Shown here piece after piece: positions 26,260-29,972 of a stretch of DNA of 50,707 bases. Source of the stretch: an uncultured Eubacteriales bacterium. GTDB lineage: Bacteria > Bacillota > Clostridia > Oscillospirales > Acutalibacteraceae. The position numbers and the translations under genes are program-made. Below the pieces are notes generated by a model. That model made no database searches, was not told where the DNA came from, and saw nothing but the letters and a program-made list of their open reading frames with translations. Within the stretch, counting starts at the first letter, position 1, and every line of letters begins with the position of its first letter. The stretch lies in NCBI GenBank assembly GCA_900316455.1, contig ONCX01000012.1, forward strand, positions 1 to 50,707. The letters run 5' to 3'.

Positions 26260-27546
26260 TCATAGCTTAATATCTCCGAAAACCTTGATCTTGTCTATTT
26301 CCTCAGCCGTCTTGAATTTGTCATAGGAATGCACAGCGTCGCTGTTTCCCATTTCCGCCTGAAGCTCGCTTATGTATTCCGAACGAGTCCTCACCCTTGA
26401 AACGCGGCGGACACTGCTGCCGCTTCTTTTGGCGCGGCGCGCATTTTCCTTAATACGTTCCTGTGGAGACATATAGACGGTTTTTTCCTTGTTCGCCGTT
26501 CCTCTCTTAGCGTAGACCGACTGCTCCTTGTGGGTCAGATTGTCCCACCAGTCGTGCAGCGCGTCAGTGCGTTCATTGAGCAGGTCGCGAATGGCTCTGC
26601 CCTCGGACCTTGCCCAGTACATAAACACGTCATACGCGTTGTCAGTGCTGACCGGCATGGTGTTGAGCAGCGGGCTGTTGGGTCTTGTGATGCATATAAC
26701 GGAAATCTCCGGCGGATTATTGAAGCGTATCCTCGACGGACTGCCCAGACCGCGTGTGACGTACATCTTGCTGCGCGCAATGCGGTATTCGCCCGACGTA
26801 TAAGCAATCTTGTTGCTCCTGATGATCCTGTCGATAAACGGAATTCTGTAATATCCGCCGTGAGTACCTCCGGCAAAAACCAGAGTAGCTCCCCAGCGCG
26901 AATACGCCTCAAAGCCCTTGGCATATCCGGTCAGAAGAATAACCGTCGCGTCCTGCGGACACTCGCCAAGAGTATCAAACACGTCGTTACTGCGAACCTT
27001 CTGGAATTTCCAGTCCTTGATGGGTTTGTTCTCGTCCGCCTTGAGTCCGGGACAATAGCCGTAAATATAGAGCTTCTCCCCGTCAACATTAATTTCGGCG
27101 CGGGAATTATTGAGGATAACCCCGCCCGCTTCCTGCACGGATTTAACAAAATTCTTGTGAAGCGTGCCGTTGCCAAGACGGAGATCGTCCTTACCCGGAA
27201 CCATTACCACAGGAATATCCCTGCCGACAGAATCCAGAAAATTATAGAACGCCTCGATATCCTCAGCCTTCGCGTCGCCCATATTTCCCGCGAAGAGAAT
27301 ATAGTCAGGACGTTCTCTTCGCACCTTGCGGGCAAGCTCAGAATTTTTCTCTCCGAAAGACATGTTGTGCAGATCGCTTATCAGCACGAACTTCATGCCA
27401 TCGAGTACACGCGGCAGTCCGTTGACCGTAACAGCCTTGTGGGTGGTGGAAAGAACAAACTTGCTCCTGATAAACTCCATGTAAACCATGCACACAATAA
27501 ATACCGCGAGTATTAATATAATCCAAAGCCAATTTGGAAGCAACAT
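26260..27546 (-). CDS. Metallophosphoesterase-fold membrane protein with degenerate metal site
   Basis: 428 residues: N-terminal transmembrane helix (1-25), then a calcineurin-like phosphoesterase domain recognisable by ISDLHNMSFGEKNSELA, PDYILFAGNMGD, VPGKDD, TLVFAGGTHGGYYRIP and MYVTRGLGSPS.RIRFNNPPEI. Against the family pattern, GDxxD reads GNMGD, GNHE reads GKDD, the metal His before the last block is replaced (LLTGYAKGF), and GHTHGG reads GGTHGG. Only the first DxH and the last His remain, so catalysis is doubtful. The C-terminal 130 residues are basic and low in complexity. Own promoter at 27594-27622. Function unknown. Confidence 0.8.
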   Translation of the reverse strand: MLLPNWLWIILILAVFIVCMVYMEFIRSKFVLSTTHKAVTVNGLPRVLDGMKFVLISDLHNMSFGEKNSELARKVRRERPDYILFAGNMGDAKAEDIEAFYNFLDSVGRDIPVVMVPGKDDLRLGNGTLHKNFVKSVQEAGGVILNNSRAEINVDGEKLYIYGYCPGLKADENKPIKDWKFQKVRSNDVFDTLGECPQDATVILLTGYAKGFEAYSRWGATLVFAGGTHGGYYRIPFIDRIIRSNKIAYTSGEYRIARSKMYVTRGLGSPSRIRFNNPPEISVICITRPNSPLLNTMPVSTDNAYDVFMYWARSEGRAIRDLLNERTDALHDWWDNLTHKEQSVYAKRGTANKEKTVYMSPQERIKENARRAKRSGSSVRRVSRVRTRSEYISELQAEMGNSDAVHSYDKFKTAEEIDKIKVFGDIKL

Positions 27547-27593
27547 GACAGATTCCCCCAGTTACTCATTTTTACTTACTACTCACCGCTTCT

Positions 27594-27622
27594 ATTATAC
27601 ATTACAAAACCCGCTAAGTCCA
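27594..27622 (-). promoter_or_regulatory. Promoter of the metallophosphoesterase-like gene
   Basis: Minus strand TGGACT (27622-27617), a 17-nt spacer, then TATAAT (27599-27594). It lies downstream of the terminator of the large RNA, so the two transcripts are separate. Confidence 0.55.
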
Positions 27623-27682
27623 TACCTTTTAACGAAAAATTTACGAACTTTTTTGCGCTTTTGTTTGTACGGTTGTTACATC

Positions 27683-27722
27683 AAAATAAAAACGATACCG
27701 ATATATTTCTACATCGGTATCG
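27683..27722 (-). terminator. Terminator of the large RNA
   Basis: On the minus strand CGATACCGAT pairs perfectly with ATCGGTATCG (27722-27693), followed by TTTTTATTTT. Confidence 0.9.
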
Positions 27723-29126
27723 CTTCCGGCTTTATGCTGCCGTAGCTATTTTGTTTTGTAATGTCCAGTTGCTTCTTTTTTTCGGGCTGTCATAACGATT
27801 GCCCGTTCCCGGCTTTTTCTGTTCGGATTATCCTCCGGCTTTTTTACAATTTGCTTTTTCTCAAACCTGCTCCTTGCATTCAGCCTTATCCTCCTGCCTT
27901 ATTACTTCAGGCGGAACGTTTCTTTGCTTTCCGAACTCAGCCTCTCAAAGCTTAATTGTACTTTGGACTCACCCTTTACATTTCATTTCTTGTCAGCTTG
28001 TAAAACTCTTTTTTCATTAAGCTCACTTGCCTTCATCGAAACTCAATTTGGTGCGGTTTTACATTTTCATTGGACTCGACCCTTTACATTTTTTACGATC
28101 TATAAATCTATATCTCGTTCAGGTCATATTAAATCTTTTTTACAGCTTACGCCTCATTAAGATTATTTTACATCGGATTTGCCGCTGCTTTATTAAACCT
28201 GTCGGGTTCTTTCTATATTCAACATTGCATGTGATTTTATGCTTTGCGTATGACGTTGTTCGTTCGACGCTTCTGCATATTTGCTTTCAGGCTTTTTTGC
28301 TCTTTGCCTTTCTCAGCTTTTTCTTTTTCACATCAACTGTTCGATCTGTCTCTGTATAATAATTTACTGCACGCGACTTATTACATCGTTCTTTTTCCAC
28401 TTTTTCACTGTAACTGACGTTCCCGCCATTTTCACGACCGGCTGAGATTGTCTTTTTTGTCGCTTTTTCAGATTTTCACTTTTTTCACTTTTCTTTATCT
28501 GCATCTTTTATCTTTCCCGTCGGTATCACGGTCAGATGCATTTTCTTTTGCAGTAATTATTTACACATTCTGCGCGGCCTTGGTCTGTCTGACTTTCGTT
28601 TCCCGTTTCTGTTATGTTTCGCGTTTCCGTCAGCAGAATTATCTGATTTTTTCAAACGGCTTTCCGCTCCGTTTGTCTGCTTACATTATTGAAGCCTTCG
28701 GAATTTCCATTGCTTTGTAACTCCAAGGCGTACTGTTCATAAACATTGCACAGGCTTTTATCTTGCATCAACCAATCTGCTTCGATTTTTGCGTCTCGGA
28801 TTGTTTGCTATAAAAGCTCTTGTACTCATTGCCATTTTTTGTTACTCAGCAATTTCACTTTCGTGGGCTTCGGTTCCGATGTGCTGTGAGGCAGTTGCTA
28901 CATCCATCGGCGTCACCCCGTTTCTTTTGTATTGCTTAATCGAGCTCTGTTCGGGAAAGGATACGGTCTTCATTTTCGGGTTGTTCCCATTATTTATTCC
29001 AACCTCAGACAGCTTACTTTTTTCGGTCTTATTTTTTCGATCGATACTTCGATCTACGTTGCATTTACGTAAGACTTACTTTTTTTCATTACTGTCTATC
29101 CTTAACTTTGCCGCTCTCCTAAGCTC
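27683..29126 (-). ncRNA. Candidate very large structured non-coding RNA (about 1.44 kb)
   Basis: No minus-strand reading frame of 60 codons exists here; stops occur in all three frames, and the plus-strand frames are short, Phe/Ser/Cys-rich and lack ribosome sites. On the minus strand a TTGACA-17-TATATT promoter (29161-29133) lies at one end and a strong terminator (27722-27683) at the other. The transcript is purine-rich, with A-rich single-stranded stretches between many perfect local stems: GACAG/CUGUC enclosing GUCUUA/UAAGAC, UACGU/ACGUA and GAUCGA-AGUA-UCGAUC (29096-29008); CCGAUG/CAUCGG; CAC-GAAA-GUG (28865-28856); AAACGG/CCGUUU; UGCAUCU/AGAUGCA around CCGU/ACGG (28540-28500); AACC/GGUU. 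This style resembles ornate large bacterial RNAs (OLE, GOLLD, ROOL), but it is longer. Identity with a known family could not be tested. Confidence 0.65.
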
Positions 29127-29132
29127 AACTAT

Positions 29133-29161
29133 AATATAACACATCTTATTGGATTTGTCAA
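29133..29161 (-). promoter_or_regulatory. Promoter of the large RNA
   Basis: Minus strand TTGACA (29161-29156), a 17-nt spacer, then TATATT (29138-29133). Predicted start near 29126. Confidence 0.8.
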
Positions 29162-29220
29162 TAGTTTTTTTAAAAAAACTGAAAAAAATTTATTTAAACT
29201 GAAATAATGCAAATTTCCTA

Positions 29221-29249
29221 TTGACATGTGTAAAAAAAGCGTGTAAAAT
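29221..29249 (+). promoter_or_regulatory. Promoter of the DUF1292 gene
   Basis: TTGACA (29221-29226), a 17-nt spacer, then TAAAAT (29244-29249), divergent from the large-RNA promoter 60-90 bp away. The 5' leader of about 107 nt is GC-richer than its surroundings. Confidence 0.8.
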
Positions 29250-29363
29250 ACAATTGGTTTTTGAAAAGCCCGTTTGAAATGCCCGTAAAACCAGATCTGA
29301 CGCAAGGGGATCCGGCTTTGGGGCGCAATCCAGTTAAGCTTCACAGTGAGGTTAAGGCAATAC

Positions 29364-29723
29364 ATGAGTGATGAGATTAACACAAGCGGCTCCGCCGCCG
29401 AGGAAGAAGACATAGACGAAGACGACAGCATTATTTCTTTGATAGACGACGAAGGACGCACATCTGAATATCAGATACTTGACGCCATTGAAACCCATGA
29501 GGGAAGATTTGTAGCCCTGATGCCGCTCGCCTCCATCGACGACGAAACCGGCGAGGCGGAATACATGATACTCAGGGTTGACATTGTGGACGACGAGGAG
29601 GAGCTTGCCGAGATCGACGACGACGAGTTGCTCACAGCGCTCGACGATCTCTTCCACGAGCGGTTCAAGGAGCTTTACGGCGACGAGGACGAGGATTCCG
29701 GCCGCTCGCTTGCCGGCGCATAA
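29364..29723 (+). CDS. DUF1292 (YrzB-like) acidic protein
   Basis: 119 residues from ATG 29364, 6 nt after AAGG; a GTG 18 bp earlier is less likely. DDSIISLIDDEGRTSEYQIL, FVALMPLASIDDETGEAEYM and ILRVDIVDDEEELAEIDDDE are typical of the small, very acidic Firmicutes DUF1292 family, which often lies near ruvX and alanyl-tRNA synthetase. Function unknown. Net charge is strongly negative, with D/E-rich ends. Monocistronic between its promoter and the 6S-like RNA. Confidence 0.85.
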   Translation: MSDEINTSGSAAEEEDIDEDDSIISLIDDEGRTSEYQILDAIETHEGRFVALMPLASIDDETGEAEYMILRVDIVDDEEELAEIDDDELLTALDDLFHERFKELYGDEDEDSGRSLAGA

Positions 29724-29759: not shown

Positions 29760-29965
29760 GCTTAATATTCTGCCCGATTCGCGGACTGTGCTTTTATAAC
29801 CCTACAAATTTTTCTTAGGGAGCCAGGTCTCCGGCGGTGGATTGCAGACCTCCCGCAGTCTTGAACTGAGTCCGGAAGCAGGGAGCGAGAAGCCGTTGGG
29901 ATGGCACCCACCTGTTACTTTTAGTAGCAGGTTATTTAAAGCCCATTACGGTCGGGCGGGATTAC
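29760..29965 (+). ncRNA. ssrS: 6S-like regulatory RNA (SsrS)
   Basis: About 200 nt with no ribosome site or sensible frame. The ends form a rod: CUGCCCGAUU (29770-29779) pairs fully, with G-U pairs, with GGUCGGGCGG (29950-29959), and GCUUU with AAAGC further in. The interior has AGGUCU/AGACCU, CUCCC/GGGAG and a small hairpin on the 3' side (ACCUGUUACU/AGUAGCAGGU) as in the central bubble of 6S RNAs; the GGCACCCACCUG stretch is one I associate with bacterial 6S. 6S binds the sigma-70/sigma-A RNA polymerase holoenzyme. TATAAT at 29746-29751 may be its -10 box. Family call is by recall of layout; exact ends are approximate. Confidence 0.55.
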
Positions 29966-29972
29966 TTTTTAA

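Follow-up and report, generated by a model that had tools for sequence, protein, structure and literature searches.

Several described kinds of bacterial RNA element offer points of comparison for the locus studied here. Among large structured RNAs, ROOL env-120 is 659 nt long and many GOLLD RNAs exceed 800 nt, and both are presented as phage or prophage RNAs located near tRNA islands (PMC12286853). Minigenes such as mg2 in the axe-txe leader are reported to act in cis and are thought to protect the message that carries them (PMC8708949). STAB-SD is described as a Shine–Dalgarno (SD)-like site that can pair with the 3′ end of 16S rRNA, where 30S binding blocks RNase J1 (PMC4113751).

We analyzed a 50,707-nt stretch of DNA (contig ONCX01000012.1, an uncultured bacterium of the Acutalibacteraceae; hereafter the window), the minus strand of which carries, from 29161 to 27688, a promoter-to-terminator unit of ∼1.44 kb without an ordinary gene. 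The promoter, TTGACA-17-TATATT (29133–29161, minus strand), matches the consensus at 11 of 12 positions, is near-invariant in a 13-row alignment and is present in all 16 genus copies that extend to the 5′ end. The transcribed unit (27688–29128, minus strand), with its start inferred from the promoter and its end from the terminator, opens with 18 bases that are conserved in the alignment (UUGAGCUUAGGAGAGCGG in the window; 29111–29128, minus strand). It ends in a strong terminator-like stem with a T-run (27688–27727, minus strand; 18 pairs counted), in which 7 of 13 pairs covary and the 5′ arm of which holds a module-like GAUACCGAUG-UAG (27714–27709, minus strand) that is missing from some copies. 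A previous sequence-only reading of this DNA had proposed both the promoter and the terminator with its T-run, and both stand. Alone, such signals are little proof, since our scans returned 12 promoter sites with 6.7 expected and 6 terminators with 5.8 expected; what lifts them above chance is conservation, namely the presence of this DNA in 16 of 18 genus genomes, the promoter in 16 of 16 copies, and stems, the terminator included, that covary. The longest minus-strand frames within the unit encode 46 aa (28364–28504) and 43 aa (28842–28973), neither with a Pfam match, and a minus frame of 110 aa (29129–29461) overlaps the unit at the promoter only, in agreement with the earlier statement that no 60-codon minus frame lies between promoter and terminator. 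The purine-rich composition of the minus strand, also pointed out previously, is borne out by the plus-strand skews across the unit (AT skew ∼−0.4, GC skew ∼−0.1 to −0.28).

At gathering score, Rfam 15 matched only the 6S RNA in the window and nothing on the unit, and no family, OLE, GOLLD, ROOL and HEARO included, fitted the RNA in scans of relatives from 19 and a further 20 sources. A permissive scan of 27500–29300 gave three weak, unrelated matches (E 1.1–2.5), and a scan of four short relatives had no match overlapping the RNA on its own strand. A search of open-licence PMC full text, which leaves absence from print unproven, returned no paper on the module described below or on the RNA; the earlier suggestion that it may be undescribed therefore still holds for Rfam 15 and for that literature. 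Viral contigs carrying any of three exact module patterns numbered 0, a count that could miss divergent copies, and with the chromosomal DUF1292–6S neighbourhood this led us to reject a phage reading. Among the relatives scanned, tRNAs lay near the RNA at only three loci (L103, L124 and L132).

A DNA search of 40 relatives yielded 16 matches, all in the same genus, and 0 of 22 among the others. Counting the window's own genome, 16 of 18 genus genomes carry the RNA (15 of 17 excluding it), and the two without a match are 87% (G003) and 77% (G011) complete. Identity to the window ranged from 0.52 to 0.83 across the other 15 alignment rows. A 23-base pattern was found in 16 named contigs, all from metagenome assemblies with titles that read uncultured Ruminococcus, Clostridia, Clostridiales or Bacillota. 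Goat stomach is named in two of the titles, and RUG stands for rumen. Two of these contigs (L053 and L054) belong to distant relatives. Tandem expansions were seen inside the RNA region, with AAAAGCCAAAAGGCAAG-like units in L036 and L039, and with GATCAAAAA or GAAATCGAA units repeated close to the 5′ end in L041 and L042; at these sites the length of the RNA is poorly constrained.

Two domains of the RNA covary within the genus. Domain A (28649–28833, minus strand) has five helices, including 28825–28822/28751–28748, 28817–28810/28761–28754 and 28675–28669/28659–28653, with 29 pairs, 15 of them changed on both sides, and 97.0% of cells paired. Domain B (28350–28571, minus strand) consists of nested helices (28567–28561/28359–28353, 28556–28549/28371–28364, 28463–28459/28377–28373 and a short inner helix) with 22 pairs, 9 changed on both sides, and 98.1% of cells paired. 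The domains were aligned separately, A with 14 sequences and B with 12, the latter excluding L036 and L039 and their long tandem insertions. Homologues thus carry both-side changes in 24 of 51 pairs, and the proposal of a stand-alone structured RNA is upheld. None of 500 shuffles matched the paired-cell, both-side-change or covariation-score values of either domain, and slid versions paired at most 45.0% (A) and 42.7% (B) of cells, although the share of paired cells is favoured because the helices were chosen from the same sequences. One of the five covariation measures, further pair types, was not above the shuffles (261 and 160 of 500). Against 25 alignments simulated on the tree, a helix-level test found a covariation sum of at least 2 in 12 helices, with 2.08 expected, in 4 with 0.20 expected at 2.5, and in 1 with 0.00 expected at 3; several of the twelve are mutually exclusive, and one of the four at ≥2.5, helix 211–214/1047–1050 with a span of 839, is probably chance. 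A single-pair covariation test on 16 rows, which was without power, gave values close to the null, and RNAalifold, applied to the whole length, performed poorly as a global fold, its covariation term being unfavourable. Two complementary, near-invariant elements ∼700 nt apart, CAUCGG in CAUCGGAACC (28872–28881, minus strand) and CCGAUG(U) in UCCGAUGU (28170–28177, minus strand), could form a long-range pairing, which their near-invariance places outside the reach of covariation. When 44 sources were searched with a domain A covariance model, only three, all of this genus, gave a good match and the others had E ≥0.12; in 250 family genomes it found 15 matches at E ≤0.1, 4 of them in the same genus at E <1e-48, and the 11 outside it (E 0.01–0.1) were taken as chance. 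As far as these searches reach, the folded core appears to be found in this genus only.

Decayed protein genes had been named beforehand as a threat to the idea of a structured RNA, and the coding test gave no sign of them. An RNAcode-like score showed nothing above shuffled columns on either strand (best p ∼0.125), while the DUF1292 gene, as a positive control, reached 156.5, well beyond the 53.5 that was the highest null score. With the control working, the lack of coding signal counts against decayed genes or neutral intergenic DNA, which the covariation contradicts outright, as does the conservation of promoter, stems and modules at an overall identity of 52–83%; the short frames, low-complexity linkers and tandem expansions of some copies are what such DNA would look like, and we nonetheless regard this explanation as close to untenable.

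Along the RNA runs a repeated module composed of an SD-like purine run (GAAAGG), usually UGAGUCC, and then RAUG or RAAG. Module 1 (AAACGGGGUGACGCCGAUG; 28905–28923, minus strand) combines the SD-like run with a divergent UGAGUCC element and an AUG. Module 2 (28059–28085, minus strand), kept in the genus, contains the micro-ORF AUG-AAA-AUG-UAA (28070–28059), and all 16 genus copies read AUG-(AAA or AGA)-x-(UAA or UGA) here. Module 3 (AAAGGGUGAGUCCAAAGUACA; 27957–27977, minus strand) is of the AAG type and is the element most widely shared outside the genus.

Searching with the module revealed relatives well beyond the genus. When up to 3 mismatches were allowed, GTAAAGGGTGAGTCCAAAGTACA occurred in 29 of the 398 genomes of the family (own genus, 7) and 15 of 135 genera; a related pattern, for which the limit was 2 mismatches, occurred in 19 of 295 order genomes and 14 of 149 genera, spanning eight families (f1, f13, f14, f16, f17, f18, f102 and f103); the reversed patterns were found in none of the 398 and none of the 295 genomes, respectively. 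The related pattern was also present in 7 of 391 genomes of the bacterial class, where the matches outside the order, L114 and L120, may be chance. At L120 (G537, another family of the bacterial class), a unit of 270–290 nt has a promoter, a module AUG-GCA-AAG-UAA and a terminator, and could reflect either chance or a wider spread of this kind of RNA. Units, with boundaries set by us, measure 252 to 1557 nt and hold 1 to 11 pattern matches each, and a promoter (≤2 mismatches) lies upstream in 16 of 20 family loci. The giant size emphasized in the sequence-only reading is therefore true of this genus and some relatives and fails for other members, which are ∼0.25–0.5 kb long. In many short relatives the module sits at the extreme 5′ end. 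Some genomes hold two or more loci or tandem short-form units: G280 (L102, L103), G1024 (L127, L136), G852 (L133, L137) and G1015 (L134, L138, L140).

The class was also approached by a search free of modules, through the DUF1292 gene, which was found in 74 of 110 family genomes. Of 68 regions upstream of it, 23 had at least two loose modules or a strict one, and 20 had a strict one; five of the 23 genomes had already been seen earlier. Over all 68 regions, the RNA strand held 69 loose modules and the opposite strand 26; for strict modules within the 23 positive regions the numbers were 38 and 0. Strict and loose patterns detected nothing in the remaining 45, where the RNA is absent, diverged or located elsewhere. 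Across 58 sequences (18 genus pieces and 40 outside loci with boundaries set by us, leaving out L100, L114, L126, L138 and duplicates of used loci), 159 modules lie on the RNA strand and 4 on the other, an excess partly built in by the choice of sequences by module. Taken from sequence patterns, the RNA is a member of an apparently undescribed, order-wide class.

After most inner AUG modules, translation in frame would meet a stop within one or two sense codons. Outside the genus and after removal of identical strings, an in-frame stop lay within three codons of 32 of 40 inner AUG modules (UAA 20, UAG 8, UGA 4), whereas the other frames gave 5 and 4 (Fisher 8.2e-14, a value overstated, as are the other Fisher values, because the sequences are related). 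For all AUG modules outside the genus the figures were 42 of 70, with 8 and 9 in the other frames, and for AUGs elsewhere in these RNAs 74 of 385; first modules had an early in-frame stop in 10 of 30. Since the pattern had first been noticed in the initial data, the test was repeated on 17 regions found through DUF1292, a set that excludes L228, where all hits were loose, and five genomes already known from the initial data; L179, one of the held-out regions, is of the same genus as L100/L101. Here the inner AUG modules had early in-frame stops in 12 of 17 cases, with 1 and 1 in the other frames (2.7e-6), and the first modules in 4 of 15, with 3 and 5. The SD-like run is 8–11 nt from the AUG in 78 of 82 modules. 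Pairing with the 16S tail of a same-genus genome averaged −14.31 for modules and −12.35 (sd 0.28) when the downstream part was shuffled; 109 gene SD regions paired at −13.98, so that the modules are equally strong even in a comparison that is kind to genes, for which the strongest of the candidate starts was used. Inner AUG modules hence have the layout of a minigene, with a properly spaced SD ahead of an AUG and a stop after one or two codons. The former claim that the unit has no protein gene is right insofar as no ordinary gene is present, and has to be amended for these SD-like sites, with their AUG and mostly near-immediate stop, and for a 5′-proximal frame of 20–22 codons, which all 16 copies keep open.

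Not every feature of the module points to ribosomes. AAG does not start translation, and AAG modules outside the genus nevertheless have in-frame stops in 17 of 28 cases, with 2 and 4 in the other frames; within the genus the stop after them is not retained (3 of 9, with 3 and 0). Reading the module list by eye, we noticed an in-frame NUG nine bases upstream in the genuine AAG modules, which by textbook rules lies too near the SD. UGAGUCC is conserved almost without change, more tightly than an SD needs. A hairpin inside the module (GG..CC), convincing at first sight, was considered and rejected, the mean longest stem being 2.53 and that of shuffled interiors 2.48. The AAG-module stops, the tight UGAGUCC and the missing early stops of first modules count against ribosome docking. 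An alternative is a purely structural large RNA working like OLE, ROOL or GOLLD, in which the modules would be untranslated motifs for protein binding or tertiary contacts; the strong covariation, the very tight module sequence and the AAG modules, unable to start translation, all suit such an RNA. Early stops that use all three stop codons and are confined to the AUG frame, SD-grade pairing with normal SD–AUG spacing, and modules outside the genus, where the covarying core was not found, speak against it, and we consider it possible though doubtful.

The frames opened by first modules are longer. In the window, module 1 starts ORF1 (28842–28907, minus strand), 21 codons encoding MDVATASQHIGTEAHESEIAE, which is kept open in all 16 genus copies at 20–22 codons with gaps of 3 nt only. 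Frames of this type, ∼17–27 aa long, occur in many genera, and the start of frames opened by first modules is M(G/D)xE..Q in many of them. At the 3′ end of short relatives, an SD is followed by a frame of 9–10 codons, M(K/M)LD(I/N)K.., a pattern found in 5 of 295 order genomes; its 12 distinct forms (L104, L123–L127, L131–L134, L140 and L154) differ among themselves by synonymous changes, and each has a 5′ module 174–539 nt upstream. In 12 of 12 folds the stop codon of this frame opens the terminator stem in its 5′ arm, and changes of the stop (UAACCC, UGACCC, UGACAC, UAGCUC) are mirrored on the other arm. The arrangement of frame and stem looks like a translation-coupled terminator. Could the RNA then be a messenger for micropeptides, with ORF1 and, in short relatives, the 3′ frame as products and the rest as regulatory UTR? 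The unbroken ORF1, the start shared by several outside genera, and the 3′ frames with their SD, synonymous differences and stop in the terminator arm would agree with this. ORF1, however, has a coding score of 4.9, which is not above the null (mean 6.0), and conservation of its nucleotides extends to silent sites; no coding score appeared elsewhere in the RNA, and inner frames of 2–3 codons cannot be functional peptides. We hold the micropeptide messenger to be unlikely.

On its 5′ side the RNA is flanked by a divergent DUF1292 gene (29346–29723, plus strand; Pfam PF06949, 44.2 bits, cut-off 24) and, beyond it, a 6S RNA (29764–29966, plus strand; Rfam RF00013, 66.3 bits, cut-off 46.4); the former identification of the first neighbour was correct, and what had been called a 6S-like RNA is 6S. 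DUF1292 is divergent from the RNA in 14 of 14 genus loci having that flank. In the wider class it was found in 18 of 46 loci examined, some of which are pieces of one place, and is divergent in all 16 that were oriented, at a gap of 117–516 nt in 13 loci and ∼0.9–1.0 kb in L094 and L106, with L054 uncounted. In our two sets of outside loci, 6S was a close neighbour of the RNA at 10 of 19 and at 4 of 20. Between 6S and pyrK, the window has a gene for a leucine-rich-repeat protein (PF12799; 30179–31771, minus strand), which was found in only three of the compared genus loci (L031, L032 and L037). A Gut-1 RNA (RF01706) is close to one short relative (L133, 1241–1315, minus strand), and the gene downstream of a three-module RNA at L118 (G714, another family of the order) encodes what we take to resemble the ribosome quality-control protein RqcH/NFACT.

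Downstream, a metallophosphatase gene lies on the same strand as the RNA, in the window and in 10 of 14 genus loci having that flank. Together with the attenuator-like position of the last frame's stop within the terminator of short relatives, this gene would make a long leader or attenuator conceivable. We nevertheless judge such a role very improbable: the metallophosphatase was not found in the other 4 of the 14 loci (L039, L042, L045 and L046), and at 36 outside loci neither strand nor kind of the next gene is fixed (same strand 15, opposite 14, not seen 7).

Promoter and terminator are conserved, the RNA covaries in this genus, and its modules are SD-grade and followed by early in-frame stops; from these features we infer that ribosomes dock at the modules, for a purpose that may be protection in cis or a ribosome decoy. 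In our preferred reading, to which we give an even chance of being right, this is a structured RNA that stands alone, is for the most part not translated and carries ribosome-docking minigenes, mainly for its protection in cis. Ribosomes would land on the modules, begin translation and end it nearly immediately, so that the RNA would be dotted with ribosomes while no ordinary protein is made. Most likely in cis, the docked ribosomes would shield the long untranslated RNA from RNase J and Rho, in the way reported for STAB-SD sites and minigenes on mRNAs. The proper work of the RNA would be done by its lineage-specific folded part.

A use in trans is the bolder reading. By analogy, the RNA might be a ribosome counterpart of 6S, a free RNA that tunes translation capacity through futile start–stop cycles at its minigenes, which we think quite unlikely. 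AAG modules would then be pure docking sites that bind without starting, and the RNA would be made near 6S, the role of which towards RNA polymerase is similar.

If docking with protection in cis is correct, a stand-alone RNA, longer here than ROOL and most GOLLD RNAs, is retained by many bacteria of a gut-dwelling order, and its widely shared part would be an array of ribosome landing sites and not a fold. Minigenes, so far from single-gene leaders, would gain a role of their own, within a class of ribosome-handling RNAs that often adjoin 6S RNA. Even on a conservative reading, what remains is a family of large structured RNAs that covary clearly and have no match in Rfam 15.

Compared with known systems, the RNA shares with OLE, ROOL and GOLLD that it is stand-alone, long, structured and covarying, and has, as they do, A-rich linkers and an obscure function (PMC12286853). 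At ∼1.4 kb it is longer than ROOL and most GOLLD, and it is chromosomal by its DUF1292 and 6S neighbours, whereas ROOL and GOLLD are described as phage or prophage RNAs. Minigenes and modules are alike in having an SD and an AUG with a stop one or two codons later; known minigenes are single and lie in leaders of protein genes, whereas the modules are arrayed in a free RNA without a downstream cistron (PMC8708949). STAB-SD sites and modules both have an SD-like sequence that can pair with the 16S 3′ end, but the former do not direct initiation and are described near mRNA 5′ ends, whereas the modules recur internally and mostly have an AUG and an early stop (PMC4113751). In Rfam, the RNA has no match to OLE, ROOL, GOLLD, HEARO or raiA. 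6S RNA, a decoy of RNA polymerase, does not match it and is a separate gene on the other strand, a near neighbour in many loci, the decoy role of which is a possible parallel. CsrB-type sponges are free RNAs with many copies of a short binding motif, which is what they share with the RNA described here; their motif is a CsrA-type GGA hairpin, whereas the module is an SD-like run with AUG and stop. For repeated SD–AUG–stop modules we know of no counterpart, and since a free RNA with arrayed minigene-like sites fits, to our knowledge, no known kind of system, it would constitute a new one.
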